A program made the translations under genes and the position numbers. This document shows, one piece after another, positions 4,808 to 20,962 of a DNA stretch of 24,392 nucleotides. Source of the stretch: a virus; the IMG/VR virus record IMGVR_UViG_3300046820_000043, positions 1-24,392 of that record. The stretch is one strand, 5' to 3'. The notes under the pieces are model-generated. The model was not told where the DNA came from. It worked only from the letters and a program-made list of their open reading frames with translations, and searched no databases. Position 1 is the first letter of the stretch, and each line of letters opens with the position of its first letter.

Positions 4808-5089
4808 TTAAAGCCTCGCTTCCAGTTGAGATATGCGCTGCTCGAGCGCGGTTACATATTTTGCCAATTCTACAGCTGAAGCCAAAGCAGCGTTACCGTA
4901 ATTGACACCTAAATACTCTTGGTCCTCTGACACAGCTTCTTTCAAAATTACTTGAAGGCTCTGTGCGCCAACACCGACTTGGCGCTCTCCAGAATCAATG
5001 CGAGTGTAAGTACCACTTTTAACCTTGGCAAGTTTTTCCACAAAGTCAAACGGCAGTACTTCCCAATCAGTTTTTAAACGCTCATCAGA
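4808..5089 (-). other. Peptidase S74 chaperone domain, copy 1
   Basis: Last 93 residues of the giant fibre; the predicted catalytic Ser1691 is at 5087-5089. It has the same layout as the S74 domain at 286-561, including IDSG..QVGVGA.SL and a YGNAA helix, and ends in a short coiled coil (ALEQRISQLEARL). Confidence 0.8.
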
Positions 5090-8000
5090 ATACGCAGTGA
5101 CGTTGCCGTATGAGTACAACGAATCAGCGTTGATTCCCCCTGTTCGACTACCGCCAGCTGGATCTACATAGTACGCGGTGTTGTCAGAGTCGTAAAAAAT
5201 AGTCCCGTATATAGAACTACCGTAGTTGTTGCCGTACATGACAAGGCGTGACCAGCCAGTCGAACCATTGCCGTTAGTCGATCTGTAGAACAAACCTTGG
5301 TCAAAGAACGTCGCAGCAAGCTGCATTGAATAGTAGTTGGCGTCATTACTGTGCGTACACGCCAACAAGTGCTGCCAACTGCCAGAGTTAACAGGCCAAC
5401 CAAGCGCAGTTGTCGCAGCGCTATACTGCCAGAAACCAGACGTTACACGGTTTGTAATGTTGGCTTGTGTTTCGCTATCGTTATTAAAGGACGCTCCGTT
5501 TACATATCCAGTAATGCTGTTATTAACAGTTAAACCATCAAAGTTTGATACTGAAGTTGGGTCGCAAAAATAGGCAGTGTTGTTGGTGTCGTAGAAGATT
5601 GGCGCACGTAAACTATTATTAGTTTGAACATAACTTCCATAAACATACGTCACCCCACGGGTGTTTTCAATTATCGTGTCGCCAAGGCTGTGTCGAATGT
5701 TGAATTGCGCAGCGTTGCTTGCTGACTGATTAAACGACTGAAGAATATATCCTGTATCGCCTTTATAACTATAGATTGGGCCGTAAATGTCTATATGCGA
5801 ACGGAAATTTGTAAACGCAGCATTTAGTGTATTTATATACGAATTGCCGTTTGGGTCAACGTAGTATCCGGTGTCGTTGCTATCGTAGAAAATTGGAGCG
5901 CGAAAAGATTGTTGGGCTTGAACATAAGTCGTACCCCACCCAATGTCACGCCCCATCAAGATATAGTTATTACTTGGGCCGCCCTGAAAAAATAACGCAG
6001 AAACAACACGCTCACCCGAGTCGTGAATCGCCATTTCCCACTGGTCTGCGCAGTTTGCAAGGTACCCCGCAGTAATACTGCTAGTCCAAGAACCGTTTAA
6101 AAAATTGTAGTTGTAGCTTGGATTGCCCGTTATTAGGACCCCGGGATATGCTTGGGTTTGAATGTAATTACCAACTGTTAAGTTAGACAGGTTTGACACG
6201 CCGTTTGGATTTACGTAGTAGGTTGTGTCGTTGCTGTCGTAGAAGATTGGCGACCTCATTGATGCGGTGGTAGATGCATTACCGCTACTATCAACCCAAA
6301 ATAATTTATAAGCAGGGTTTGCGGCTGCTTCATCATTAGCAGCAGCAATTCGGCTAATAACATACTGACCACTAAAATCGGTATATGGGGTTCCAGCAAA
6401 CCAACTGCTGCCAGTACCGAACATAAATACTCCGGCACCTCTATAGTTGTCGTGAGACCTTAAGTAGAGGCGAGACGCAACGTAACCGGTGGAGCCATCA
6501 GCAGCAATATCAAAAGTGGAAAACTGTCTACTTGTGCCGGCAGGGTCAAAGTAATAAGCAGTGTTGTTGCTGTCGTAGTAAATTGGAGCGCGAGCATCCG
6601 TATTAAACGTGACTATGCCGTTAAAAGTTTGATTGCCAGAATCATCAATTTGCCACTTAAACCCTGCGCCGGTTCCATATCCTTTGTAAACATAGTACGT
6701 ACCATTACGCCCAACGTTTTCCCAACGGAATGTGCCGTCAGTATCACAGAACTGAATAATATTCCCAGAGCCGCGAATGTACATTGCACGGCTTGAGCCG
6801 TCACTATAAAAAGTTGCACCCGAATTAAAGATGGCAGTATATAAATTAGATGTGCTGTTAAGATTTAAATAGTAGCCTGTGTCAGCGCTATCGTAAAAAA
6901 TTGGCGCACGGACGTCTGAATTGGAATAAATGATTCCATTTACTCCAAGTGGAAACCCCATGCTAGAGTTTTGATTAATTGTTACATTACTGCCGTTTGG
7001 GTTTAAGAACAACGGAAACGTTGCGGCGTCGCTTGTACGCATTGACTGGATAGCAGAGGCGTAACTTGCTGACTCGTTCAACGAGTTCATCACCAAGTAA
7101 ACGTCGTTTGCACCAATACGCGCAGCCCAGTTAGAGCCGTTTAATGAAGCAGGTCTACCAACACCAAAACCAGCAGTTAGTTTGCCATACACATCTACTA
7201 CGTTCAGGTTTGAAGTGCCAGCGGGGTCTACGTAGTAAGCAGTGTTGTCCAAATCATAAAAAATAGGCGAGCGCATTGACCCAGATGCTTCTGTGTACAC
7301 ACTGTGGTAAACACGCAAAAGATTGTCGTTACCGTAAAAACCAAGTGATACAAAATTACCGCCGTTTGCCGAGCTTACATATCTATAGCCTAGATAACCA
7401 CTATTGCCCGTATTCAACGCATTTCCAAGAATATGCAGCATTGTTTGCCCGCCACCAAGCGAAGCTGATATAGCAGTAGATGCCCACTGGAACGAGCCAG
7501 AACTTGAAACGGGAGTAATCCGTAAAGGTGCAGTACCGTCCCCAATAACCCCATTTATTGTTAAGTTGTAAATATTGGACGTGCTTGCAAAGTCACCGTA
7601 ATACGCAGTGTTGTTGTAGTCGTAAAAAATTGGCGATCTTGCACTTGCGCTTGTACCAAGGTTGACAATGTCGTCATCACCAATGTTAAAAGTGCCGGGG
7701 CCAGTCGTAATTCTAAAATTTACAGTGGACGGGGCAAAATCAAAATACGTAGCGTTTAGGTACGAGTTTCCGCCCGGATCTAAATAGAACGCAGTGTTGT
7801 CAATGTCGTAAAAGATTGGCGCGTATAGGCCGCCATTTAAGTATGTGTTGGCGTTTGCGTTTGACCAATAAATTGAAGGGGCGGAAGCATTATAAGCAGT
7901 CATGACGCCAAACTGCCCCGTCAACAGGTTGTACTGCAAATTAAAATTAGTTGTACCAACCGCGCCTTGCGCGCCACCATTATTTATGTTGAATAGTATT

Positions 8001-10159
8001 CCATTTCTAGGAGTCGCTAATGCCCAACCATCATTATTATTATCTATACGACCTGTAACAATAATTTGCGCTCTGCCATAAATATAAGCGTTGTTTGTTA
8101 CGTTTAAAGATGTTGAGGCGTCAAACACTCCGCTACCCAAAACTTGTAAGTAATATAGTTTTGAGTTTGAATTGGGGTCTACGTAGTAGTTAGTGTCGTT
8201 GCTGTCGTAAAAAATGGGCGCACGGTAGTCACCGCTTGTTATGTACGAGCCTGTACCGCCGCCTTTGTTTGTTAGGGCGTTGTAGTCAACTGCGCCTGCG
8301 CTGTCGGCAACCCTTGCGGAATCTACTCGAACACCATAAGTGTTTGCGCCGTTCCAGCCCATTAATGTTGGGAATGTTCCAGTCCAATTGTTTTGAGGGT
8401 TAGTGTTACTTATTGAAGTACCGCTTGGTGAAGTACCTGCTGAAGCATCAAAAATAACGTGGCCGTTACCGTAGTTTTTCCACGCAAGCATGCCAATAAC
8501 ATTATTGATAACGCCTGTGCCCCAGCTTGATTGTGTGCTTGTCAGTGTTACAGCAGATGTGGCCAGCGTAGCCGTAGCAGCGTTCCCGCTAATATTAATT
8601 GCCCAAGTGCCAGTAGCGCCACCGCCTGACAATGTTGGGGCGTAGGAGTTATAAGTAGAAGAATCAAGAATTGTGCGCCAAGTGGTTCCAGCATAGGTAG
8701 CTCCTATGGACTTGCGCCAATACGCATCACCGTTATAAGAAAACCAAAACTGCGTGGATATGTCACCATTCCAGTATGTTTGTAGTGTTCCATAAAGACT
8801 GGTGTTGCCGGGGCCATTTGTGTACCCCGCACCAATGTTATACACGCCCGATGTAGCATTAGAAACACCAAGAGTGTTCAGGTCCCCAGCAAAACGAGAG
8901 AAATTAACTGCGTCGGGTGTGTAACCTAAAGCAGTTGTAACTTGCCCAGAAGTAATGCTGCTTACTGTAGTTGCGTTTCCAGCGTTTGTAGCGTAGGTAG
9001 CCGTAGCCGCATTCCCACTAATTGAAATACCCCAAGTACCAGTAGCGTTTGTACCGGATACGCTTGGTGCGCCAATCGTGTTGTAGCTAACAGTCAGAGC
9101 ACCAGAACCATTAAAAGTAGAACCTGACGCACCGCCAGCGCCGCCGCTATTGAACGTGGCTGAAGAAGCAGTACTAGCGGCTTGACCTGTAGTGTTGCCC
9201 GTACCACCAGCCGAAGTTGGCAAAGTGCCAGATGTCAGTGTTGTAGAGCTGTTAGCGTAAACTGCGCCGCCGCTTGTGTAGCTTGTAAGACCTGTGCCGC
9301 CATAGCCTGTGGCAATCGTGCCGCCATTCCATGTGCCGCCTGTGATAACTGTAGAGCCAAGGGCGAGTGCGTTCGTTCCCCAAGTTACGTTCTCAGGGAT
9401 GTATGCGTGGACGTCCCAAGTACCGCCAACCGTGGCGTTAGAGAGCAGAGCAATACCAGCAGCGCCGCCCGGAGCAATAGTGCCAACCGATGTACCCGCG
9501 TTATTCTGAATCGTCAACGTACCAGTGGAATTATTGTTGAACTGGAACGCGGTTGTGTCCGACAATGTTGTTGCGTCAGGAAGTCGATATGTATGGCCGC
9601 CTGTGCCTACCAAAGCTTGGTTAAATGCAGAAGCCGCAGTCAGTACTGTTGTGCCACCAGACGCCGTGGTGGTCAGCAAACCTTGGTTAATTCGATTGAT
9701 GGTAATGTTTTGGCTAGCATCACGCAGCACTACGGAGTTCGCGCCAGTAGATGCGGTTACACCTGTGCCACCATAAGCTACGCCAACAGTTGTGCCTTGC
9801 CATACACCAGAGGACACTGTGCCCAAAGGACTGACGTTGCCGCTCTCGTTTAAGTTGACTGACTTGCTTGCTGGGTATGTCAGGAATACGCTCTTGGTTC
9901 CAGCCGCCAACGTAATGGCCGAAGTGTTGCCATTAGAGTTAGAGAGAATCGTTGTACGCGCAAGCGTAGGGCCAGACGTAGAGTACGTACCAACACCCAC
10001 TTCCCACGCAGAGCCGTCTACGATGGTGTAGTAGCAAGTGTTCCCGTTACCAACGACAGCAAACGACTGAAAGCCGGGTACAGCACCGCCCAGAGTTACC
10101 GAGCCGGTGCCTGTTGTTGTCGTGGTCTCCTGTACCCGATCAAAGAGTGCCAGAGCCAT
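4808..10159 (-). CDS. Giant tail fibre with ten FYD repeats, two pyocin-knob-like domains and S74 chaperone
   Basis: 1783 residues, the largest gene here. Residues 1-100 (MALALFDRVQETTTTTGTGS, then GNGNTCYYTIVDGSAWEVG) form a virion-attachment domain widespread in phage fibres. There are YGGTG and GNAATAT beta-helix-type segments to about residue 640. Two pyocin-knob-like regions are visible, near residues 425-500 (LQTYWNGD..TQFWFSYNGDAYWRKS) and 1563-1648 (GWPVNSGSWQHLLACTHSND). Ten copies of (R)(A/S)PIFYDS(N/D)(N/D)T.YYVDP..(T/N)SNL are spread over about residues 645-1670, spaced 60-130 residues apart, separating variable segments. From Ser1691 (SDERLKTDW, QVGVGAQSLQ, ending in a coiled coil) the S74 chaperone trimerises and self-cleaves. 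This is predicted to be the main receptor-binding fibre. AAGGGG lies eight bases before the ATG. Confidence 0.9.
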   Translation of the reverse strand: MALALFDRVQETTTTTGTGSVTLGGAVPGFQSFAVVGNGNTCYYTIVDGSAWEVGVGTYSTSGPTLARTTILSNSNGNTSAITLAAGTKSVFLTYPASKSVNLNESGNVSPLGTVSSGVWQGTTVGVAYGGTGVTASTGANSVVLRDASQNITINRINQGLLTTTASGGTTVLTAASAFNQALVGTGGHTYRLPDATTLSDTTAFQFNNNSTGTLTIQNNAGTSVGTIAPGGAAGIALLSNATVGGTWDVHAYIPENVTWGTNALALGSTVITGGTWNGGTIATGYGGTGLTSYTSGGAVYANSSTTLTSGTLPTSAGGTGNTTGQAASTASSATFNSGGAGGASGSTFNGSGALTVSYNTIGAPSVSGTNATGTWGISISGNAATATYATNAGNATTVSSITSGQVTTALGYTPDAVNFSRFAGDLNTLGVSNATSGVYNIGAGYTNGPGNTSLYGTLQTYWNGDISTQFWFSYNGDAYWRKSIGATYAGTTWRTILDSSTYNSYAPTLSGGGATGTWAINISGNAATATLATSAVTLTSTQSSWGTGVINNVIGMLAWKNYGNGHVIFDASAGTSPSGTSISNTNPQNNWTGTFPTLMGWNGANTYGVRVDSARVADSAGAVDYNALTNKGGGTGSYITSGDYRAPIFYDSNDTNYYVDPNSNSKLYYLQVLGSGVFDASTSLNVTNNAYIYGRAQIIVTGRIDNNNDGWALATPRNGILFNINNGGAQGAVGTTNFNLQYNLLTGQFGVMTAYNASAPSIYWSNANANTYLNGGLYAPIFYDIDNTAFYLDPGGNSYLNATYFDFAPSTVNFRITTGPGTFNIGDDDIVNLGTSASARSPIFYDYNNTAYYGDFASTSNIYNLTINGVIGDGTAPLRITPVSSSGSFQWASTAISASLGGGQTMLHILGNALNTGNSGYLGYRYVSSANGGNFVSLGFYGNDNLLRVYHSVYTEASGSMRSPIFYDLDNTAYYVDPAGTSNLNVVDVYGKLTAGFGVGRPASLNGSNWAARIGANDVYLVMNSLNESASYASAIQSMRTSDAATFPLFLNPNGSNVTINQNSSMGFPLGVNGIIYSNSDVRAPIFYDSADTGYYLNLNSTSNLYTAIFNSGATFYSDGSSRAMYIRGSGNIIQFCDTDGTFRWENVGRNGTYYVYKGYGTGAGFKWQIDDSGNQTFNGIVTFNTDARAPIYYDSNNTAYYFDPAGTSRQFSTFDIAADGSTGYVASRLYLRSHDNYRGAGVFMFGTGSSWFAGTPYTDFSGQYVISRIAAANDEAAANPAYKLFWVDSSGNASTTASMRSPIFYDSNDTTYYVNPNGVSNLSNLTVGNYIQTQAYPGVLITGNPSYNYNFLNGSWTSSITAGYLANCADQWEMAIHDSGERVVSALFFQGGPSNNYILMGRDIGWGTTYVQAQQSFRAPIFYDSNDTGYYVDPNGNSYINTLNAAFTNFRSHIDIYGPIYSYKGDTGYILQSFNQSASNAAQFNIRHSLGDTIIENTRGVTYVYGSYVQTNNSLRAPIFYDTNNTAYFCDPTSVSNFDGLTVNNSITGYVNGASFNNDSETQANITNRVTSGFWQYSAATTALGWPVNSGSWQHLLACTHSNDANYYSMQLAATFFDQGLFYRSTNGNGSTGWSRLVMYGNNYGSSIYGTIFYDSDNTAYYVDPAGGSRTGGINADSLYSYGNVTAYSDERLKTDWEVLPFDFVEKLAKVKSGTYTRIDSGERQVGVGAQSLQVILKEAVSEDQEYLGVNYGNAALASAVELAKYVTALEQRISQLEARL
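5158..8225 (-). repeat. Ten dispersed ~60-bp repeats coding PIFYD..NT.YY.DP
   Basis: Repeat copies lie near 5160-5210, 5560-5612, 5847-5902, 6199-6260, 6535-6595, 6862-6915, 7219-7277, 7595-7640, 7775-7825 and 8170-8225. On the plus strand each has a gta(g/a)(t/g)a...gt(g/t)tcg...tcgta(g/a)aa.att gg core. They punctuate unrelated segments of 150-400 bases, so the fibre shaft looks modular. Confidence 0.85.
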
Positions 10160-10789: not shown

Positions 10790-11236
10790 TTAAGAGATGC
10801 GCACGATCGCGCTGTTAGCATCCGAAGCGGGGAAGATGATTTGAAACGTGTCATTAGCTACAGTTTTATCTGCACCAAAGTCTAACACCGCAACCGATTT
10901 ATTACCCTGTGTTGCGTTGTAAATTAAGGCTCCACGACATGTAAACGATGCGCTTGTCCAGCTTGTGTTGCTAAACGAAATAAACGCAGTGGGTACTTGG
11001 CTAGCATTGTTGGTAGCCGTCGGAGGAGTTGAGATCACCAACGTATTACCACCAGCGACGTAGCCTGTACCAGTTACCTCGTTAGCTGTCGTATACACAG
11101 TTGTGCCGGGTCCAATGTTAGACGCGCCTGTGTACAGAGCAATCTTGAAAGTGTTAGGTGACGTAGGGCCAAAGTTGTGAATCGCTTGGAGCAGCTCAAC
11201 TCTAAAGCTAGTGGTCGTGGTTTGTTGGATTGCCAT
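10790..11236 (-). CDS. Conserved phage structural protein, beta-rich (148 aa)
   Basis: 148 residues. After a helix (FRVELLQAIHNF) come NTFKIALYTGASNIGPGTT, NEVTGTGYVAGGNTL, FTCRGALIYNATQGNKSVAV and LDFGADKTV segments, a combination I recognise from many uncharacterised phage structural proteins near the connector. The start overlaps the stop of the adaptor-like gene by one base (TGATG), a sign of translational coupling; only a weak GGTGA precedes it. It probably forms part of the tail or connector, since it is flanked on both sides by such genes. No enzyme motif or membrane segment is visible. Confidence 0.75.
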   Translation of the reverse strand: MAIQQTTTTSFRVELLQAIHNFGPTSPNTFKIALYTGASNIGPGTTVYTTANEVTGTGYVAGGNTLVISTPPTATNNASQVPTAFISFSNTSWTSASFTCRGALIYNATQGNKSVAVLDFGADKTVANDTFQIIFPASDANSAIVRIS

Positions 11237-11907
11237 CAGGTCACCGCCTGTCTAAACTGACCAGAACGATACGCATCCTGACGCTCCATACCATCGCCCA
11301 GACGTTTAGCCAACGCTAGTGCTTCTTGGTACTTGGTGTTGTAAAACGCCATAATATCCTGCTCACCCTTCATATAGGTGTAAGCCTCAACCAACGAGCC
11401 GTACAAAAGCACTGAGTCAAAGTTATCACCCAACCATGTCTGGCCGCTGGCTGCGACTGTGATCGACACTGGATAGTAGTAATAGTGCAACTCAACTTGG
11501 TAGTTTGCATCTGGCTTGGGACCAAGAATGAACGACAGCTCGTTTGAAATCGCAGCGCCTGAGACTGTTGGGCCAAACAAAGCGTAGTACTTTGGCAGTC
11601 CTGTGTCGGTTGCTTTTGGGTACGCTTGGCGAATGAAGTTTACATCCTTGTTCAGCAGGTACTCGTAGTTGCCAGTAGCATCAATCACAGCCAAGGAATA
11701 TGTGGCTAAGTAATCATCTGGTGCAGACAAATACGGTGTCGTCAATGACACATCGCCCACTACATTCTTGCGAAGTGATGGGAACTGAACGGTGTTGTAA
11801 ATACGCTGCTCAGCTTGCTGAACGAACACGGGTATCTGAGCAATAAAATTTGCTTCAGTGTTTTCCGTATACGCCTGAATAGCGTTGCTGAGTGCGGTGT
11901 AGTTCAT
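11236..11907 (-). CDS. Head-tail adaptor-like protein (tail tubular A-like)
   Basis: 223 residues. The helical N-terminus (MNYTALSNAIQAYTENTEAN, FVQQAEQRIYNTVQFPSLRK) is followed by a beta region with LSAPDDYLATYSLAV, GLPKYYALFG, ELSFILGPKPDANY and VELHYYYYP. The end is helical (LLYGSLVEAYTYMKGEQDIM, YNTKYQEALALAKRL). This helix-beta-helix layout fits the phage adaptor / T7 gp11-like group that sits below the portal. The start overlaps the previous stop in ATGA, with GAGG nine bases upstream. The neighbours are the connector-like 310-residue protein and two structural proteins. The assignment rests on layout and memory of similar genes, not on a diagnostic motif. Confidence 0.7.
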   Translation of the reverse strand: MNYTALSNAIQAYTENTEANFIAQIPVFVQQAEQRIYNTVQFPSLRKNVVGDVSLTTPYLSAPDDYLATYSLAVIDATGNYEYLLNKDVNFIRQAYPKATDTGLPKYYALFGPTVSGAAISNELSFILGPKPDANYQVELHYYYYPVSITVAASGQTWLGDNFDSVLLYGSLVEAYTYMKGEQDIMAFYNTKYQEALALAKRLGDGMERQDAYRSGQFRQAVT

Positions 11908-12113
11908 GCCATTGGGCCTCGGGCCATCACGCCTTTAGTCGCAGCACCTGTGCCACGAATCTTGATGCCAGAAGTTTTTGTTGGTGGATAGTCATTGCTA
12001 CGTGTATTAGCTACAGACGTGTTCGCCTTGCGCATAGTTTCCTTAGCGGATTCTTCACCTACAACAACGTTAGGGACAATCTTGGGTTGACGGTAAACTT
12101 TAGTTGTTGCCAT
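11904..12113 (-). CDS. Small basic protein with shared C-terminal tail motif (69 aa)
   Basis: 69 residues beginning MATTKVYRQPKIVPNVVVGE. I chose the ATG at 12111-12113 because GGAGG lies five to six bases upstream, inside the end of the 58-residue gene, whose stop is one base away. A longer frame to 12152 lacks a ribosome site and would overlap that gene. The C-terminus (SGIKIRGTGAATKGVMARGP) belongs to the RG.GA.TKG / DG.ATRGK family of tails found in several genes here. The protein is mostly disordered and basic. Function unknown; the tail suggests it shares a destination or partner with the other tail-bearing proteins. Confidence 0.65.
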   Translation of the reverse strand: MATTKVYRQPKIVPNVVVGEESAKETMRKANTSVANTRSNDYPPTKTSGIKIRGTGAATKGVMARGPMA

Positions 12114-12114
12114 A

Positions 12115-12291
12115 TTAGCCTCCACGACGACCGGGGGATTTTTGGTTGGCAACTTTAGCCAAGTTGCGACCCATCTTCAGCATGTCGCTGTTAGTCTTGC
12201 CACCAGCTCGCATGTTCTTAACCGCTGCATCGGGATGAGCGGCCTTCATGCCTTTAGCCATGTGTGCTTTTAGTGCTTTCTTTGCGTCCAT
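12115..12291 (-). CDS. Small basic protein (58 aa), unknown function
   Basis: A short reading frame, 58 residues, starts MDAKKALKAHMAKGMKAAHP and continues AAVKNMRAGGKTNSDMLKMG, then GRNLAKVANQKSPGRRGG. AGGAG lies seven bases before the ATG. The gene fills the space between the zinc-ribbon gene (stop at 12294) and the 69-residue gene with almost no gap, which argues strongly that it is real. It is Lys/Arg/Gly-rich with a helical first half, and may bind nucleic acid or act as a minor virion protein. I do not recognise the family. Confidence 0.75.
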   Translation of the reverse strand: MDAKKALKAHMAKGMKAAHPDAAVKNMRAGGKTNSDMLKMGRNLAKVANQKSPGRRGG

Positions 12292-12293
12292 TT

Positions 12294-12725
12294 TCAGGCT
12301 CCTATCTGTATCGTTACTGTACCAACTTCTGACAATAAAACCAAGTCATTTGGTGTTAAAGCAGTATCAAAAAATCTGGCCCCACCAACTGGGTTCCAGC
12401 CCCATTGAAACACTCGGCTACCGCCTTCTGGATAGCCATCAGCATTTACTGCTGGGCTATTGATGTTTTCAATTTGCAACCCACTCAAACCAGACTGATA
12501 ATAGCTGCGGTCAGGGCGTGGATTCCTTAAACCTTGTGGGTCGTCAACAGGGTACATACCCAATTGCAGTTGTGGATGATCGGGGTCCCAGCACTCAGGG
12601 CAAACCAACAAGTCGTAGTTCTTCGTCTTGATGATTTCTTTACGCAGTACTTTTAATTTGAACCGCTGGTCGCAACGGTCGCACTGTGCAATTGCCCATT
12701 TGCCAGAAGCAAACCGATTACCCAT
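12294..12725 (-). CDS. Zinc-ribbon protein of the connector cluster (143 aa)
   Basis: 143 residues. The N-terminal half has CDRC (Cys15, Cys18) and CPEC (Cys42, Cys45), a four-Cys zinc ribbon, between MGNRFASGKWAIAQCDRC and the QLQLGMYPVDDPQGLRNPRP segment. The second half (GGSRVFQWGWNPVGG, then NDLVLLSEVGTVTIQIGA) looks beta-structured. The MGNRFASGK.AIA.CDRC...QLQLGMYPVDDPQ arrangement is one I recall from uncultured phages next to connector genes. The start overlaps the previous stop by one base (TAATG), with GGAGG six bases upstream. A structural zinc-stabilised virion protein is more likely than a regulator, given its place; no function is established. Confidence 0.8.
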   Translation of the reverse strand: MGNRFASGKWAIAQCDRCDQRFKLKVLRKEIIKTKNYDLLVCPECWDPDHPQLQLGMYPVDDPQGLRNPRPDRSYYQSGLSGLQIENINSPAVNADGYPEGGSRVFQWGWNPVGGARFFDTALTPNDLVLLSEVGTVTIQIGA

Positions 12726-13657
12726 TAAGTGCCTCCACCAATAAACTGTTGGCGCGGCACAAAACGGATAGCTGCTTTTTCTCGATCTTCATCAGCCGCT
12801 AACTGCCAAGCTTCATCGTACTGCTGTTTAAGCATCGGTAAGCGGGCAGCGCCTTCAGGCACTTTCATCGCAATGTAGTAGGACAGGCCAGCAGCCATGC
12901 AAGGAATAAAGCGGAACGGTACATCCATCACGTTCACGCCACCACCTGCGTCTTGTGTACGGCGCAGTCTCCAGTAAACAAACGTGTACTGTTGCGCAGA
13001 GTCTGGAGTGGGCCAGACAGTAATAGCAGGAACTTGAGCCAGATAGACCGTAGCGCCACTTGTGTGGGAGGCCGCAGTTGTGTCTTGTTGCCCACGGAAA
13101 CAGTTATATAGGGTATTCCCTGATATGTATCCGTAGTTGATGATCTCGTTGTCAATCTTGACAAACCCAGCAGCTGGTAGGCCGATGACTGAATTAAGCG
13201 TAATCTGCGTGACTGTAGACGAGATAGAGCCACTCAAAGTCAAGCTAGTTGGGGAATTCTGACCATCTAAACGCTGAACCCAAACCTGAATAGGTCTGGC
13301 TTGCTGAATCTTGTTAGGGATCGTAGCGTACGTAGAAACACTAATACGCGTGATTGTCAGGTCAGCTTGGTTGTTCTGGATATTAGCTTGTGTACGGATC
13401 ACATGCTCAAGAAGATCAACAGTGTCGTACGGTAAAGCGTACGTGTTTTGACCTTGAACCAGAGGGATTGTCCCTTGCTCAATAGTCCACATATTGATGC
13501 CGCGGTTGGCCCAATCTGCAAACATGATGTTGAGACTACGACGTGCGGTACGCAAGTCATATCCAGTGCGTAGCTCACCCCCGGCACGTTCAAACGCCTC
13601 CTCGACCAACTCACTAAGGTCAAGGTTAAATGAGGAGGTGCCGGATGTAATAGCCAT
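12725..13657 (-). CDS. Head-tail connector-like protein with beta-domain insertion (310 aa)
   Basis: 310 residues. The N-terminus is helical (LDLSELVEEAFERAGGELRT, TARRSLNIMFADWANRGINM) with a beta strand pair (GTIPLVQGQNTYALP). At about residues 140-205 there is an inserted beta domain (ITLNSVIGLPAAGFVKIDNE, GNTLYNCFRGQQDTTAASHT). A return to the core follows (ITVWPTPDSAQQYTFVYWRL) and a helical C-terminus (AAGLSYYIAMKVP, MLKQQYDEAWQLAADEDREK). The core resembles the P22 gp4 / T7 gp11-type connector proteins that close the portal and join the tail. The start overlaps the previous stop by one base (TAATG). The call fits the position, but I cannot run a structure comparison. Confidence 0.7.
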   Translation of the reverse strand: MAITSGTSSFNLDLSELVEEAFERAGGELRTGYDLRTARRSLNIMFADWANRGINMWTIEQGTIPLVQGQNTYALPYDTVDLLEHVIRTQANIQNNQADLTITRISVSTYATIPNKIQQARPIQVWVQRLDGQNSPTSLTLSGSISSTVTQITLNSVIGLPAAGFVKIDNEIINYGYISGNTLYNCFRGQQDTTAASHTSGATVYLAQVPAITVWPTPDSAQQYTFVYWRLRRTQDAGGGVNVMDVPFRFIPCMAAGLSYYIAMKVPEGAARLPMLKQQYDEAWQLAADEDREKAAIRFVPRQQFIGGGT

Positions 13658-13908
13658 TATTTTCTCGCAGTCTTTGCCGAGTTTATGAACGCTTGATTAG
13701 TTGGCGCACCTTCGCTACCAGGTTTACGCATCTTTTCGCCAGACCCTGCAGCGATTCTTTTACGTTTTGCATTGATATTTGCATAGAGTCCGACCTTTCC
13801 GCCGTCAGCGTACATGTCAACATTGTTCGGGTCATCCGTACGTTGAATGACCTTCTTCTTAGGCATTTTGGAGGGAGCAATAGCTCCCATCCCTCTGCAC
13901 GCCATCAT
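13657..13908 (-). CDS. Small basic Gly/Lys-rich protein (83 aa)
   Basis: Of 83 residues, the first part (MMACRGMGAIAPSKMPKKKV) has the CRGMGA opening I associate with small proteins of uncultured aquatic phages. It is followed by RTDDPNNVDMYADGGKVGLY and KRIAAGSGEKMRKPGSEGAP. The start at 13908 overlaps the previous stop as ATGA, which favours coupling; the Met at 13866 (MPKKK) is an alternative. A GGGAGC-TATT-GCTCCC hairpin lies just before that second Met and could influence which start is used. The protein is highly basic and mostly disordered, a possible DNA-associated or internal virion protein. Function unknown. Confidence 0.7.
   Translation of the reverse strand: MMACRGMGAIAPSKMPKKKVIQRTDDPNNVDMYADGGKVGLYANINAKRKRIAAGSGEKMRKPGSEGAPTNQAFINSAKTARK
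13873..13888 (-). other. Small inverted repeat (GGGAGC-TATT-GCTCCC) near the start of the 83-aa gene
   Basis: A six-base perfect stem with a four-base loop lies inside the first codons, seven bases before the internal ATG at 13866. It masks a GGGAG sequence that could otherwise act as a distant ribosome site. There is no T-tract, so it is not a terminator. Confidence 0.4.
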
Positions 13909-14159
13909 GTGATGATCGTCCCACGAGTTTTGCCTCTGGTGGCAATACCATCAGCACGTTTAGACGCAGAAGAAACTGATCCGCCGTTAGCGTAACCTTT
14001 AACATCTTTACGAGCTTGCATCTTGGCCTTATCGTCCATGCTCGTCATGTTATTGATGTTAAAGAACTCACCAACACCGCGTACCTTATCGCCCACAGCG
14101 TCGCCAAATTTACGCATCTTGTACCCGATAGGATTCTTATCAGGCGGGTCTAAAGCCAA
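13905..14159 (-). CDS. C-terminal part of a frameshifted tail-motif protein
   Basis: 84 residues if read from a TTG at 14159, but no ribosome site precedes that TTG. The frame is open further upstream and reads sensible sequence (ISKAQYDKSVKDYERD) back to an A6 run at 14207-14212. It is therefore best taken as the second half of the gene at 14150-14377, reached by a -1 shift; the joined product would be 157 residues. Visible content: PPDKNPIGYKMRKFGDAVGD, EFFNINNMTSMDDKAKMQ and the tail KGYANGGSVSSASKRADGIA followed by TRGKTRG. The tail nearly matches the end of the 313-residue protein upstream. Function unknown; probably a minor virion protein. Confidence 0.65.
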   Translation of the reverse strand: MALDPPDKNPIGYKMRKFGDAVGDKVRGVGEFFNINNMTSMDDKAKMQARKDVKGYANGGSVSSASKRADGIATRGKTRGTIIT

Positions 14160-14377
14160 ATCCCGTTCGTAATCTTTAACTGACTTATCGTATTGCGCTT
14201 TAGATATTTTTTCGCTTTTCGTTCAGCAATTTCGCCCTGCTTTTGTTTACGATAACCTTCAAAGTTACCAGTTGTAGTATCTGGCTCGGGCATTGCTTTG
14301 TCATAAGCAGCGCCAGCTTTTTTACGAGCCTTTTCATCAGCTACGTCTTGGGGGGTTTTGTATTCAATATCAGCCAT
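14150..14377 (-). CDS. N-terminal part of a frameshifted tail-motif protein
   Basis: 75 residues without a shift. It opens MADIEYKTPQDVADEKARKK and is Lys/Glu-rich and helical to AERKAKK. After Lys57 the zero frame gives RNTISQLKITNGIWL, whose composition is unlike the rest. Codons 56-57 are AAA AAA. A -1 slip there reads on into the downstream frame and gives a continuous 157-residue protein with the shared C-terminal tail. GAGGTGA precedes the ATG and overlaps the end of the 313-residue gene. Either programmed frameshifting or a one-base deletion (real or from sequencing) explains it. The short zero-frame form could still be made. Confidence 0.65.
   Translation of the reverse strand: MADIEYKTPQDVADEKARKKAGAAYDKAMPEPDTTTGNFEGYRKQKQGEIAERKAKKYLKRNTISQLKITNGIWL
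14207..14212 (-). other. Candidate -1 frameshift site (A6 run)
   Basis: Codons 56 and 57 of the 75-residue frame are AAA AAA, preceded by GCG and followed by TATC. Slipping back one base gives ATA TCT AAA GCG CAA TAC as the next codons, in the frame of the downstream tail-bearing sequence. I see no strong downstream stem-loop and no obvious upstream stimulatory Shine-Dalgarno. Confidence 0.5.
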
Positions 14378-14385
14378 GATTCACC

Positions 14386-14478
14386 TCAATACATTTTGCA
14401 TTTAGTCTTGCCGCGAGAGGCAATACCGTCACCGCGCTTGGACGCAGAGCCGACAGAACCACCATTAGCGTAGCCTTT
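14386..14478 (-). repeat. Duplicated C-terminal tail module (copy 1; copy 2 at 13905-14000)
   Basis: The 30 residues from KGYANGGSV to the stop match the 31-residue end of the frameshifted gene in about 22 positions, and the underlying DNA is similar as well (for example the gcgtagccttt / gcgtaaccttt segment). This suggests duplication of a terminal module between neighbouring genes. Confidence 0.65.
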
Positions 14479-15327
14479 GACTTTGCCGCCCTTCTTCATA
14501 GGCAAGCTAAAGTCACTGCCGCCTAAGCCTTCACGTACCCGCTTAGCAACTTCTGGGTTGATGTTGTCGGGGTCAAGACCAGAGCGACGAGCGTTCTCAC
14601 GCAACATCTCTTCGTTACGACCAGAAGCACGAGCGGCGCGATCACGAGCCATCAAGTCAGCTTTGGAAGGACCAGTAAGCTGTTTTGTAGGAGCGGGAAG
14701 TTCTTTAAGGTATGGAGAAGCAGCTGCTGGAGCTTCTTTAGCAGCTGTACGACCAGCCAAACCTTTAGCAATACTGTGCATGGTCTTTAAACCGGGACCG
14801 CCTATCATCTGTTCAGGATACACGCCTTCAACAGCTTGTGAACCCTCACGGATGTTTTTACGCATGTTAGCTCGTTCACTATCAGCGGCGGAGCCACGGA
14901 TGTCAGGATACTTGCTAGAGACTGGGGGCTTATATGCAGCCAACTCTTCTGCTGTAGGGCCACGACCGCCACCAGAACCTGTACCGACAGGTGGAGTCCT
15001 GTCTATCAGTCTTGGCACGTTATCAGTCGCAGATTTAGCTGCGGGTTTAGCCGCGGGGCGATTACCACTACCGGGTTTACTGGACGGAAACACAGCCTCA
15101 GATGTACCAGCAGCGCCACGCTCATTAGGAATCAAGGTACGTTCTGTACGCTTGTTCGCAGCTTCCATCGGGTCTTCTTCAGACTCGCTAGGTGCTTCTT
15201 TTGTTTCTTTTGCTTCGCTTGCAGACGAAGCTTTAACAGGCTCAGCACTACCAGCTTTCTTGCGAGCCATCAACATGCCAAGCCCTGCGAGGGCGGCTAA
15301 TCCAGCTAAATCTTTTCTACGTGCCAT
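14386..15327 (-). CDS. Low-complexity protein with N-terminal hydrophobic segment and shared C-terminal tail (313 aa)
   Basis: 313 residues. Residues 7-21 are hydrophobic (LAGLAALAGLGMLMA) after a basic MARRKD start and before RKK; this may be a short membrane or interface helix. The middle is disordered, rich in Ala, Ser, Lys, Pro and Glu (SSASEAKETKEAPSESEEDP, KPAAKPAAKSATD). A more ordered stretch follows (EEMLRENARRSGLDPDNINP, EVAKRVREGLGGSDFSLPMK). The end is KGYANGGSVGSASKRGDGIA then SRGKTK, almost the same as the tail at 13905. AAGGAG lies eight bases before the ATG. The composition and setting suggest an internal or minor virion protein; the family is not recognised beyond the tail. 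Confidence 0.7.
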   Translation of the reverse strand: MARRKDLAGLAALAGLGMLMARKKAGSAEPVKASSASEAKETKEAPSESEEDPMEAANKRTERTLIPNERGAAGTSEAVFPSSKPGSGNRPAAKPAAKSATDNVPRLIDRTPPVGTGSGGGRGPTAEELAAYKPPVSSKYPDIRGSAADSERANMRKNIREGSQAVEGVYPEQMIGGPGLKTMHSIAKGLAGRTAAKEAPAAASPYLKELPAPTKQLTGPSKADLMARDRAARASGRNEEMLRENARRSGLDPDNINPEVAKRVREGLGGSDFSLPMKKGGKVKGYANGGSVGSASKRGDGIASRGKTKCKMY

Positions 15328-15342
15328 GGTTGGCTCCTTAAA

Positions 15343-15843
15343 TCAGCACTTGCCGCCTTTTTTCATGCCCAGAGGCTTAGACCCAGCCATCTTGACCATA
15401 GTACCTTTAGAGATACCTTTGGACTGCACAGCGTGTTCGCCTTTGCCTTTAAAGCCGCCAGATTTGACAGCGCCCATTTTTGCGGAAGTGATACCGCCGT
15501 TAGCCATTTTCTTCATGCCCTTCATTTCTGACTCCTCATGTTTAATCATTGATTTGGGTGCGCCAGCTTTTTTCATAAAGCCAACTTCTTTTTTCATCAT
15601 CGCCTTAGACTCTGCCATACCGCCGCCTTTCATTACGGACATTTTGCCGTGATTAGTTTGAGATTTATTTATGCTTTGAGCATCTGCGCGGGTTTTTGGT
15701 CCACCAGAACCAAATTTCTTACCTTTGCTAGCTTCGCTGTATTCTTTGGCAACAGAAACAGGAATACCCGCAGCTTTTGCAAACTGTGGGTTGTGTGCGG
15801 CGGCGTCCATGAACCGCTTTTGTTTTTCACTCGTCGCTGGCAT
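15343..15843 (-). CDS. Basic Gly/Lys/Met-rich protein with MPATS-x-KQ-RFM opening (166 aa)
   Basis: 166 residues. The N-terminus (MPATSEKQKRFMDAAAHNPQ, FAKAAGIPVSVAKEYSEASK) is a widespread phage motif related, as I recall, to the DUF3008 type. The remainder is Lys/Met/Gly-rich and repetitive (MSVMKGGGMAESKAMMKKEV, GMKKMANGGITSAKMGAVKS, GISKGTMVKMAGSKPLGMKK), ending in GGKC. The gene overlaps the membrane-protein gene by 17 bases; AGGA lies six bases before the ATG. The strong positive charge suggests contact with DNA or with an acidic virion surface. Function is unknown; the last segment (SKG.SKGTMV) is a variant of the tail motif seen in the neighbours. Confidence 0.75.
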   Translation of the reverse strand: MPATSEKQKRFMDAAAHNPQFAKAAGIPVSVAKEYSEASKGKKFGSGGPKTRADAQSINKSQTNHGKMSVMKGGGMAESKAMMKKEVGFMKKAGAPKSMIKHEESEMKGMKKMANGGITSAKMGAVKSGGFKGKGEHAVQSKGISKGTMVKMAGSKPLGMKKGGKC

Positions 15844-16030
15844 CTTTTTTCCTGCGAATTAACTCAGCAAAAGGTTTGCCTGCAATCATCTCAGTGATCC
15901 GCATGCCTGTCCACACAATCGTAAACAGTGCGGCAACCGCAGGAAGTAGTTGCATTACCGTACCAACAGCCGTAACAACGGCTACGCCGTCTGCTACAGT
16001 TTTTATGGTTTCAACGTTTTCTTGTTTCAT
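15827..16030 (-). CDS. Small membrane protein, holin candidate (67 aa)
   Basis: 67 residues. A hydrophobic stretch at about residues 13-45 (ADGVAVVTAVGTVMQLLPAV, AALFTIVWTGMRI) can form one long or two short membrane helices. It is followed by a charged tail (ELIRRKKDASDE). Size, single hydrophobic region and charged C-terminus fit a phage holin or a small virion membrane protein. There is no endolysin beside it, which weakens the holin call. The start overlaps the DUF6321-type stop as ATGA, and its end overlaps the 166-residue gene by 17 bases, so it is embedded in the operon. Confidence 0.7.
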   Translation of the reverse strand: MKQENVETIKTVADGVAVVTAVGTVMQLLPAVAALFTIVWTGMRITEMIAGKPFAELIRRKKDASDE

Positions 16031-16341
16031 ACCATCCGCCCTTTTGTCTTGCCTTTTGTAGCGCAGCCATCAGCCGCAGTTACATAGCCACCATCTGCGC
16101 AGTTCCATGCTCTCAAAGATTTATTAATCCGCGAGTTCGGATCGTTGGCAGTCTTGGCAGAGGTCAACTTCTTTTTCATGCCACTCATCCTCGCACAAAA
16201 AGAGTCGCGCCGGGAGCCGCCTTCGGGCTGGGGCCGTTTCAAATTCATGCCTTGCGCTTTCGCAGAGGCTCGCCCTTTGGCGTTCAAACCGCCATTGGGG
16301 TTCTTCCCTTCTGCTCTCTGCCATGCTGGACTCTTAGCCAT
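16027..16341 (-). CDS. DUF6321-type protein with shared C-terminal tail (104 aa)
   Basis: 104 residues. MAKSPAWQRAEGKNPNGGLN, AKGRASAKAQGMNLKRPQPE, RRDSFCARMSGMKKKLTSAK and TANDPNSRINKSLRAWNC form a conserved pattern that I recognise as the DUF6321 family (name from memory), found in phages and some bacteria with no known function. The extra C-terminus (ADGGYVTAADGCATKGKTKG) carries the DG.ATKGK tail shared by neighbouring genes, an addition to the basic family domain. The start overlaps the previous stop by eight bases (ATGGCTAA). The protein is strongly basic. A nucleic-acid or virion-packaged role is plausible but unproven. Confidence 0.85.
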   Translation of the reverse strand: MAKSPAWQRAEGKNPNGGLNAKGRASAKAQGMNLKRPQPEGGSRRDSFCARMSGMKKKLTSAKTANDPNSRINKSLRAWNCADGGYVTAADGCATKGKTKGRMV

Positions 16342-17280: not shown

Positions 17281-18192
17281 TCAGGCAGAACCTGAAGAAC
17301 CCCACATACCGAGGGGATCAGACCAGCCGAAGCTATAACGCTCACGAGCTTTATAGCGAACGTTGCCGGTGTCGAAGTCGCCGTCCATGCTGTTTTGCAG
17401 CGGTGTACGAACGAAGTGCTTCAGACCGTTAGGCACGTCAGTGGTCAAGAACCAGCCGTTGCTGTCTGTCAAGAAGTGGTTGACAGTGTAGCCTTCAGGG
17501 ATAGCGCCCATCTGCTTGATAGCATTGATGTCGTTATCGGCTGTAGCAACACGCAACTCAGTGTCCAACAGGCGCTTGGCCGTGAACATCAAAGCTGGGG
17601 GAACAATCAACTTCTTGGGTTTAGCAGCGATCAGCAAGCCACGCTCGTCTGTCCAAGCGGCGATTTGAATAACGGCGGCTTCCAAAGAAGTCTCGTTCAA
17701 ATCTACTTGGGTAGAAGGTGTGTTGCTGTTGTAGCCACCAGAGATCAAGGGGTGCTGAGTGTTGAACAAAGAAACGCCATCACCACCGGGATAGGTAGCG
17801 GAGAAGCCGTTATTCAAGACTGCGGCAGCCTTAACTTGCTTGGTGTATGCCATAGCACGAGCCAAGGACTTTGTGTAACGAGCAGACAAGCTGTCGTACA
17901 GGTTATCTTCAACCGCTTCTTCAGTGATTGAGAAACCCAAAGCAATGGTTTCGTGTGTATAGCGAGTAGACCATGCCTCTTGTGCATTGTCATAAGCGAT
18001 GGCAGAACCCTCGTTTTTGACAGGTGCAGCTGAGAAGCCAGAAAGCTTGGTCTCTTCTTCGAATGAACGCTCAGAGGTCTCTGTTTCGTAGATCTCTTTG
18101 TGCTCTTCGCCGTAACGAGCATACTCCATACCGAACAAGGCGTTCAGGCCGGGGAGCAACTCTTTCAGCAGTTGTGCGCGTGAAATAGCCAT
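17281..18192 (-). CDS. Major capsid protein, HK97 fold, Mu gpT-like
   Basis: 303 residues. MAISRAQLLKELLPGLNALF and MEYARYGEEHKEIYETETSE open the protein. SFEEETKLSGFSAAPVKNEG leads to the E-loop-type region, then YTHETIALGFSITEEAVEDN and LYDSLSARYTKSLARAMAYT. A conserved FNTQHPLISGG motif follows, then the P-domain (PKKLIVPPALMFTAKRLLDT) and the aromatic C-terminus (RYSFGWSDPLGMWGSS). This order, especially the F.T.HPL.SGG motif, matches the Mu-like major head subunit (gpT) group as I recall it. It assembles the icosahedral shell with the scaffold encoded three genes upstream. AAGGAG lies seven bases before the ATG. A tRNA-like element and terminator follow the stop, consistent with high expression. 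Confidence 0.85.
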   Translation of the reverse strand: MAISRAQLLKELLPGLNALFGMEYARYGEEHKEIYETETSERSFEEETKLSGFSAAPVKNEGSAIAYDNAQEAWSTRYTHETIALGFSITEEAVEDNLYDSLSARYTKSLARAMAYTKQVKAAAVLNNGFSATYPGGDGVSLFNTQHPLISGGYNSNTPSTQVDLNETSLEAAVIQIAAWTDERGLLIAAKPKKLIVPPALMFTAKRLLDTELRVATADNDINAIKQMGAIPEGYTVNHFLTDSNGWFLTTDVPNGLKHFVRTPLQNSMDGDFDTGNVRYKARERYSFGWSDPLGMWGSSGSA

Positions 18193-20361: not shown

Positions 20362-20772
20362 TTATGCAGCACGGGTAATTCCGCGCGGATCTTCAACAAC
20401 AGCCTCGATCGAATCATCATTGATGATGCGGAACTCTCGGCCATGAATCTTCAGGCGTGTGCCTGAATTTGGTCGGACGATGACAAAGTCACCTTCCTTG
20501 CAACTCGCACCGCTAGGGAAACGAGCGGTATCTTTGTAGCAGTCAGGCCCAAGCTTGACGACAAACAACACAGGGGTTAGCACTTCTTCGTAGTGCATAG
20601 ATTGACTAGACTTAATCAAACCGACATCACTGTCAGCATATTCCTCCATGGCTTCAGGAACCACGCATAGGATATGAAAAGTCTTAGGGTCAGGTAATTG
20701 TTTAGCTTTTTGTTCAGCACTTGTATTAAGGATGCCAGACAAATCAACTGCCTTTACGTCAAATTCAGTCAT
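20362..20772 (-). CDS. GroES-like co-chaperonin (Cpn10 fold), 136 aa
   Basis: 136 residues from the ATG at 20770-20772, which overlaps the end of the 65-residue gene by eight bases (ATGACTGA); a longer frame to 20802 has no ribosome site. The second half reads like the core of a GroES subunit: a strand with VLFVVKLGPDCYKD, then SGASCKEGDFVIVRPNSGT, then LKIHGREFRIINDDSIEAVV. The KEGD.V and G.E..I...DI.A(I/V)V positions correspond to those of GroES. A mobile-loop-like segment (SDVGLIKSSQSMHYEEVL) lies before it. Phage co-chaperonins such as T4 gp31 work with host GroEL to fold coat protein, and here the gene sits between portal and scaffold. I judge the fold likely, function inferred. Confidence 0.65.
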   Translation of the reverse strand: MTEFDVKAVDLSGILNTSAEQKAKQLPDPKTFHILCVVPEAMEEYADSDVGLIKSSQSMHYEEVLTPVLFVVKLGPDCYKDTARFPSGASCKEGDFVIVRPNSGTRLKIHGREFRIINDDSIEAVVEDPRGITRAA

Positions 20773-20962
20773 CAGAGTTTTCCATTTTTTGCACGAGCTC
20801 ATTAATGATGTTTTCTGCTAGGTTGAGACCTCGGATTACCCCGCAGACACTGCGATAGTCTTCTATGTTGTCGGCTCTACCCGCTGCAACATAGGCTTCT
20901 CGCTCCTGTCGATATTTTTCAATCTCTCTGGCGACATGCGCCAGTACTTTGTACTCTTTCAA
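20765..20962 (-). CDS. Small helical head-module protein with TTG start (65 aa)
   Basis: The protein has 65 residues. The start codon is TTG (20960-20962), directly after the portal stop, with AAAGGGG five bases upstream inside the portal's last codons. No internal ATG occurs until the last few residues, so TTG is the only credible start. Mostly helical: KEYKVLAHVAREIEKYRQER, EAYVAAGRADNIEDYRSVCG, VIRGLNLAENIINELVQKME. Its end overlaps the co-chaperonin-like gene by eight bases. The tight coupling suggests it works in head assembly, but the family is unknown to me. Confidence 0.7.
   Translation of the reverse strand: MKEYKVLAHVAREIEKYRQEREAYVAAGRADNIEDYRSVCGVIRGLNLAENIINELVQKMENSDD

Follow-up and report, generated by a model that had tools for sequence, protein, structure and literature searches.

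Why should several small basic proteins with different bodies end in the same short peptide, and what might that peptide do? The question is raised by a 24.4-kb virus fragment from IMG/VR (IMGVR_UViG_3300046820_000043; the whole stretch analysed is called the window), the main genes of which lie on the minus strand. A sequence-only reading of the window had proposed that four such proteins share one C-terminal tail, that a fifth carries a variant, and that the tail marks a common destination or partner, such as packaging inside the head. Most small genes of environmental phages have neither homologs nor an assigned function; a peptide of this kind, if the proposal made below is true, would single out phage proteins of unassigned function that travel in the virion.

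The window encodes the end of a terminase, a portal, a GroES-like protein, a scaffold-like protein, two conserved proteins, the major capsid protein (MCP), a cement-like protein, a run of small basic proteins, a conserved 310-aa protein (p310), an adaptor and tail fibres. By portal and MCP, its nearest cultured relatives are Planktothrix phage Pag-Yong1 and Pelagibacter phages HTVC023P and HTVC027P, and metagenome-assembled DSL-LC04 is also near. The portal is about 41–45% and the MCP 63–73% identical to those of the HTVC023P/Pag-Yong1-type head module, which establishes homology. The match of the adaptor to a solved phage adaptor (Table 1) fits a short-tailed phage; a sequence search of the PDB returned no match for the MCP or the cement protein. 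The GroES-like protein (20362–20802; phrog_3188, E 4e-7) adjoins the scaffold gene and is present in all 12 related genomes. GenBank records OQ594354 (MinM2), OL906435 (Pag-Yong1) and PP438419 (Pra-JY27) share the same length (65,014) and match scores and name different hosts; they may be one genome.

Shared protein ends also occur among the fibres. Two long fibre-like proteins of the window (4808–10159 and 286–2463, the shorter being a collagen-like repeat protein) have a common C-terminal region, YSDExLKTxW...ELAKxVxxLE, which we take to be reminiscent of an intramolecular chaperone domain. Several fibre-like proteins of phages 023Pt_psg01 and HTVC023P (L084, L090) share the C terminus GGSGIVIIRYKFQ, probably an ordinary fibre end domain rather than a tag.

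Tagged proteins of the window

Three window proteins, 16027, 14386 and 13905 (named by their first coordinate; Table 1), end in a tag that we call class A, with the consensus GGSVSSASKRADG[I/C]Ax[R/K]GKT[R/K]Gx[M/I][V/C]. A profile search with the tails alone, as the first reading had suggested, recovered all three (domain E-values in Table 1), so that its claim of one tail on four proteins holds for these three; the fourth, 11904, has a separate, related tail. Its remark that the N-terminal parts differ was borne out, as 16027 is a DUF6321 protein and neither Pfam nor PHROGs has a family match for the body of 14386 or that of 13905. Protein 16027 scores 65.2 bits against a DUF6321 gathering cut-off of 28.5, the domain spans residues 12–79, and in the alignment the tag starts right after the usual final residue of DUF6321 (RAWNC). 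In an AlphaFold2 model, residues 84–104 have pLDDT below 50 and are predicted to be disordered, and the DUF6321 part is helical with modest confidence.

The reading frame of 13905 continues that of ORF 14150–14377, and both form a single 173-aa ORF in related loci L003 and L004; thus, the window gene is split by a frameshift. The frameshift sits near a run of A (GCGAAAAAATATC), and a real mutation, a programmed frameshift and an assembly error cannot be told apart. In protein 15343 the tag has decayed to EHAVQSKGISKGTMVKM, and this copy has no tail-HMM match; because relatives with the same N-terminal domain bear a class A tag (NGVAVKGKTKGTMITM in L003, for example), the earlier description of this 166-residue protein as a variant was fair. 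The N-terminal domain of 15343 (residues 1–43) is also present in other phages. In phiKZ-like jumbo phages it makes up a small protein by itself (PhiPA3 gp316 and KTN4_204, with a noted similarity to 201phi2-1 gp383 and phiEL gp094), and in Salmonella phage PHA46 it forms the N terminus of a 'virion structural protein' of 878 aa.

Protein 11904, or p69, the true start of which is the ATG at 12113, does not match the class A tail profile even at E 10. Its tail is nearer to a second class, class B (described below; hhalign P 5.8e-5), and this RGxGAAx[RK]G tail, carried by one gene family, lies exactly 8 residues before the stop codon in 133 of the 135 matches listed from related loci. The untagged protein 12115 resembles, in its C-terminal half, a protein of about 62 aa that bears an N-terminal version of the tag (MAYTRSADGIAKKGKTEGKN) in about 45 related loci (L003, L007, L044 and others); the tag is thus found at the N terminus in some small proteins. 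The C-terminal motif of p83, KRKRIAAGSGEKMRKPGSEGAPTNQAFINSAKTARK, also occurs in T7-like cyanophage S-CBP4 and pelagiphage HTVC142P, where its carrier is a small protein near scaffold/head-assembly and capsid genes.

Table 1 Coordinates of the tagged proteins, their tags and neighbouring head genes in the window
Feature	Position	Strand	Evidence
Major capsid protein (MCP), marker of lineage for tag class	17281..18192	-	phrog_371, E 4.3e-23
DUF6321 (PF19846) protein, 104 aa, class A tag	16027..16341	-	Pfam, E 8.5e-18
Class A tag of 16027, ADGGYVTAADGCATKGKTKGRMV	16030..16098	-	tail HMM, E 2.2e-11
166-aa basic protein, phrog_16759 N-terminal domain, decayed tag	15343..15843	-	PHROGs, E 8.7e-16
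Decayed tag of 15343, EHAVQSKGISKGTMVKM (relatives: SRDGVASKGKTKGTMIKM)	15388..15438	-	comparison with L003, L006, L008
313-aa body with C-terminal class A tag	14386..15327	-	strong Shine-Dalgarno, AAGGAG
Class A tag of 14386, NGGSVGSASKRGDGIASRGKTKCKMY	14389..14466	-	tail HMM, E 3e-11
5' part of split tagged gene	14150..14377	-	homologous to first half of 173-aa protein of L003/L004
3' part of split tagged gene, class A tag	13905..14159	-	tail HMM, E 2.3e-13
Class A tag of 13905, NGGSVSSASKRADGIATRGKTRGTIIT	13908..13988	-	tail HMM
83-aa basic protein (p83), last of cassette	13657..13908	-	phrog_16028, E 2.9e-23; position conserved in 12 genomes
58-aa protein without tag	12115..12291	-	C-terminal half GKTNsxMxxMGRNlAKvA; body clusters, side-by-side reading
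69-aa protein (p69) adjoining adaptor gene, class B-like tail	11904..12113	-	RGxGAAx[RK]G tail pattern; hhalign
Class B-like tail of 11904, TSGIKIRGTGAATKGVMARGPMA (RGTGAATKG..RGPMA)	11907..11975	-	tail pattern; hhalign with class B
Head-tail adaptor	11236..11907	-	phrog_2941, E 4.3e-21; PDB 7z47 'Adaptor protein', E 9e-5

The tag as a selected protein end

The tail profile, built from 258 distinct tails (its seeds include those of 16027 and 14386, not that of 13905), matched at least 570 ORFs in at least 207 loci; most loci are fragments, and ORFs were called mechanically in the computed analyses. The DNA pattern KRADGxAxx[RK]GKT, written without a stop codon, was scanned across IMG/VR, from which tag frequencies are lower bounds, and across 84,980 bacterial and archaeal genomes. 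Among the viral matches listed, 123 of 181 lie exactly 5 residues before the stop codon and the remainder mostly 2 or 11–17 residues before it. Among the bacterial and archaeal matches, 67 of 114 are more than 20 residues from a stop and the others are scattered. A fixed distance to the stop in viruses and scatter in cellular genomes identify the tag as a selected, viral protein end. A cellular origin was tested and rejected, because the cellular matches scatter as chance would predict; a few exceptions (L231, L283) are probably phage contigs that were placed in MAG bins. Searches by tblastn with a 31-aa tail and with 11904 against phage records returned nothing, such short low-complexity queries being probably masked, and a literature search limited to open-licence papers found no description of the tag.

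Compositional bias, which the first reading had named as what might undo its proposal, is excluded. The surroundings of the tag are low in complexity and rich in Gly, Lys and Ser, as an origin by composition or chance would have it, but residue-shuffled ORFs gave no profile match in five rounds and the distances to the stop codon are sharply fixed; we give this explanation next to no weight. An effect at the level of DNA (recent duplication, gene conversion, or shuffling of cassette genes at a recombination site) is very improbable. Codon agreement at same-residue sites is 0.48 within genomes, above the 0.36 expected from codon usage, so some copying does occur. Between genomes, however, it is only 0.41, indicating that it is the peptide, and not the underlying DNA, that has been conserved, and the existence of two tag classes, each at an exact distance from the stop, requires selection on the protein end.

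Could the tail act simply through its charge? The tag and its neighbours are rich in Lys and Arg and the window proteins have net charges of +7 to +23, as would suit a basic nucleic-acid-binding tail on core proteins, DNA-condensing or similar to a scaffold, that enter the head along with the genome and have bodies without a specific role. Yet besides Lys/Arg the near-invariant positions of class A are Asp, Gly, Ala and Thr, the last residues are hydrophobic or Cys, and charge alone requires neither a fixed distance to the stop nor the restriction of each genome to one class (see below). We therefore regard this reading as improbable.

Cassette, tag classes and capsid lineage

In each of the 12 long contigs that were read end to end (53–87 kb), the class A tags are confined to a single block of the head module. 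Nearly all of them fall between the MCP/cement/DUF6321 genes and p83/p310; in one contig of this set (G007), an N-terminal version of the tag lies beside the adaptor. The window MCP is 81–96% identical to that of 20 of 23 tagged long contigs. The tagged bodies listed fall into 128 clusters under single linkage, by which some large clusters join via linkers and short bodies inflate the singletons. With tags masked, the other 11 genomes contain no homolog of 28 of 38 bodies (22 of 38 by phmmer). All 11 have the portal, GroES-like, scaffold, DUF6321, p143 and adaptor genes. The remaining larger head genes occur in almost every one, and p93, a small gene, is variable too.

The tag is modular, being added to or exchanged on conserved bodies. 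DUF6321 proteins usually end in ...RAWNC or ...RAWKC: 83 of 100 copies stop there and 17, including that of the window, continue into a tag after that Cys. Eight changes were counted on the DUF6321 tree, which has 81 columns and is poorly resolved, and two are forced by well-supported branches, so that we claim only more than one change. In the family of 15343 (p166), members from class A genomes bear a class A tag and the member from locus L385 a class B tag. A DSL-LC04 body that resembles one of L010 ends in AKGGLVTSKGQGRVIRSKKTRIC and not in AKGGSVGSASKRADGCAQRGKTKGRII.

The class B tag, RGxGAA[I/L]RGTKFxGVF, is found in related marine phages, including cultured HTVC023P, the host of which is HTCC1062 and in which two unrelated proteins, encoded at record positions 21655–22392 and 32480–32863, end in RPDGIRGVGAAIRGHKFIGVK and SRGGGAAVRGMGFKGVF. 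The class B tag is borne by dozens of bodies, and in 125 of the 126 matches listed exactly 2 residues separate it from the stop; 106 of the 108 loci listed have head genes homologous to those of the window. In the loci read, class B genes adjoin the portal gene or sit between cement and p310. The class A and class B profiles match weakly and in the same register (P 0.003), which is no more than suggestive. The ends of two adjoining proteins of DSL-LC04 (L083, 22234–22839), ..KKKTKIY and ..SKKTRIC, may represent a third dialect, belonging to that lineage.

Each genome uses one class, and the class follows capsid lineage, with few switches. In all of the 184 listed loci that have at least two tags of one class, the cassette genes (the p69/11904 family excluded) bear either A alone or B alone. 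Class A loci have MCPs 73–100% identical to that of the window (83 loci listed), and class B loci have MCPs 56–67% identical to it in 30 of 33 loci listed (exceptions L445, L490 and L385). On the MCP tree, the class changes 4 times, compared with 24.7 times with shuffled labels. One class per genome and its link to capsid lineage are the expected outcome of a common, lineage-specific receptor. Locus L385 has class B tags, yet its MCP is 85% identical and class A-like; thus, tag class depends on more than the capsid protein, and the receptor may be a head protein other than the MCP.

The same correlation bears on whether the tag addresses a site outside the particle, such as a host membrane or complex or a site of lysis or assembly. 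The cassette includes a small possible membrane protein (15827–16030), and location in the head module alone shows only late expression. A host target, however, would be expected to track the host, whereas tag class tracks capsid lineage even though related phages infect different hosts, and we judge such a destination to be unlikely.

A putative docking tag and its known counterparts

The same end peptide on unrelated proteins, the genes of which lie in the head module, is probably a docking label into the virus particle. A common destination or partner, as first proposed, remains the best reading because more than 100 body clusters share a selected end, which lies in one head-module block in the 12 long contigs, is of one class per genome and is added to or exchanged on conserved bodies; 11904 bears a second class of tail. 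We consider it somewhat probable, judging from sequence patterns, that head assembly in these phages uses the peptide as a portable docking tag, placed at the C terminus, by which accessory proteins are loaded into the head or onto it. From the same patterns we infer binding to a head component, incorporation into the virion, a location inside the head and a role as effectors.

We propose that, in a group of short-tailed phages with capsids related to those of HTVC023P, Pag-Yong1 and DSL-LC04, the gap between the capsid/cement and head-completion/adaptor genes would serve as a cassette of fast-changing accessory genes. A new protein would become a client through a disordered end tag of about 20 residues. 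A conserved head component present in every genome (candidates are the scaffold, the inner face of the capsid and the portal) would bind the tag during prohead assembly and so bring the body, basic and probably disordered, to the inside or the surface of the particle. Any body that ends up inside would leave the head together with the DNA and work at the start of infection, as T4 internal proteins do.

The tagged bodies have a median length of 99 aa, a mean pI of 9.3, 22% hydrophobic residues and almost no Cys, unlike the tag, in which Cys is frequent; they match no anti-defence, nuclease or other effector family in Pfam, PHROGs or PADLOC. These properties also bear on whether the tag instead anchors variable decoration proteins outside the capsid, aiding adhesion to surfaces or cells. 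Modularity and location in the head module fit that arrangement equally, and exposed fast-changing proteins are frequent in phages, but bodies so basic and poor in hydrophobic residues, with no Ig-like or lectin domains, are unlike known head fibres, and we think an outside anchor unlikely. We looked for virion proteomics of tagged phages and found none; the docking-tag idea can be tested now with cultured phages.

Phages of the kind that carries the tag are very common in fresh water and in the sea. A wider formulation, in which a C-terminal head-loading code with two capsid-lineage dialects loads hypervariable virion proteins in abundant freshwater and ocean short-tailed phages, and in which the dialects identify injected effectors, is offered tentatively, as a possibility that we doubt slightly more than we believe. 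If a docking tag is confirmed, it would also offer a way of loading such capsids with proteins by means of a short peptide.

Among relatives, the HTVC023P-type pelagiphages (PMC9599517, PMC12753301) have homologous portal and MCP and a similar order of head genes; HTVC023P differs in having class B rather than class A and an MCP 63% identical to that of the window. The passages of these papers that were consulted make no mention of tags. In Pag-Yong1/Pra-JY27/MinM2, the MCP is 73% identical and a 308-aa protein, encoded directly after MCP and cement, ends ...GRDGCAKRGRTKGRFI (class A); unlike the window, there is one tagged gene in the stretch read, and the DUF6321 gene is untagged and lies elsewhere. 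DUF6321 (PF19846) itself accounts for residues 12–79 of 16027, whereas the tag lies outside the Pfam model.

Two head-targeting systems invite comparison. In phage P1, DarB has an N-terminal packaging signal (PMC9024508), and there, as is proposed here, a terminal segment sends a protein into the head; it is, however, N-terminal, on a single 250-kDa protein and involves no common short peptide. The T4 internal proteins are closer. Ip1–3 (IpI–III) have no homology to each other except for an N-terminal packaging leader, are encoded in variable loci and block restriction enzymes once injected (PMC12373910); 10 residues of the capsid targeting leader are enough (PMC9026906). As in T4, small basic unrelated proteins here have only a short terminal peptide in common, and their genes form a hypervariable cassette, with different sets in related phages. 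The T4 signal differs in being N-terminal, of 10–19 residues and cut by gp21; the present tag, found in short-tailed phages, is C-terminal and unrelated in sequence. Comparison of window genes with PHROGs turned up no prohead protease; if the signal is cleaved, this would have to happen in some other way. Packaging is proven for T4 and is proposed here. Since the tag is not N-terminal and no protease was found, we regard it as similar to the T4 system in its way of working but do not count it as a member: the best reading is a docking-tag system that may be analogous, not homologous, to the T4 N-terminal capsid-targeting sequence. If this is true, short-tailed phages evolved T4-like terminal codes for head targeting independently, at the opposite end of the protein.
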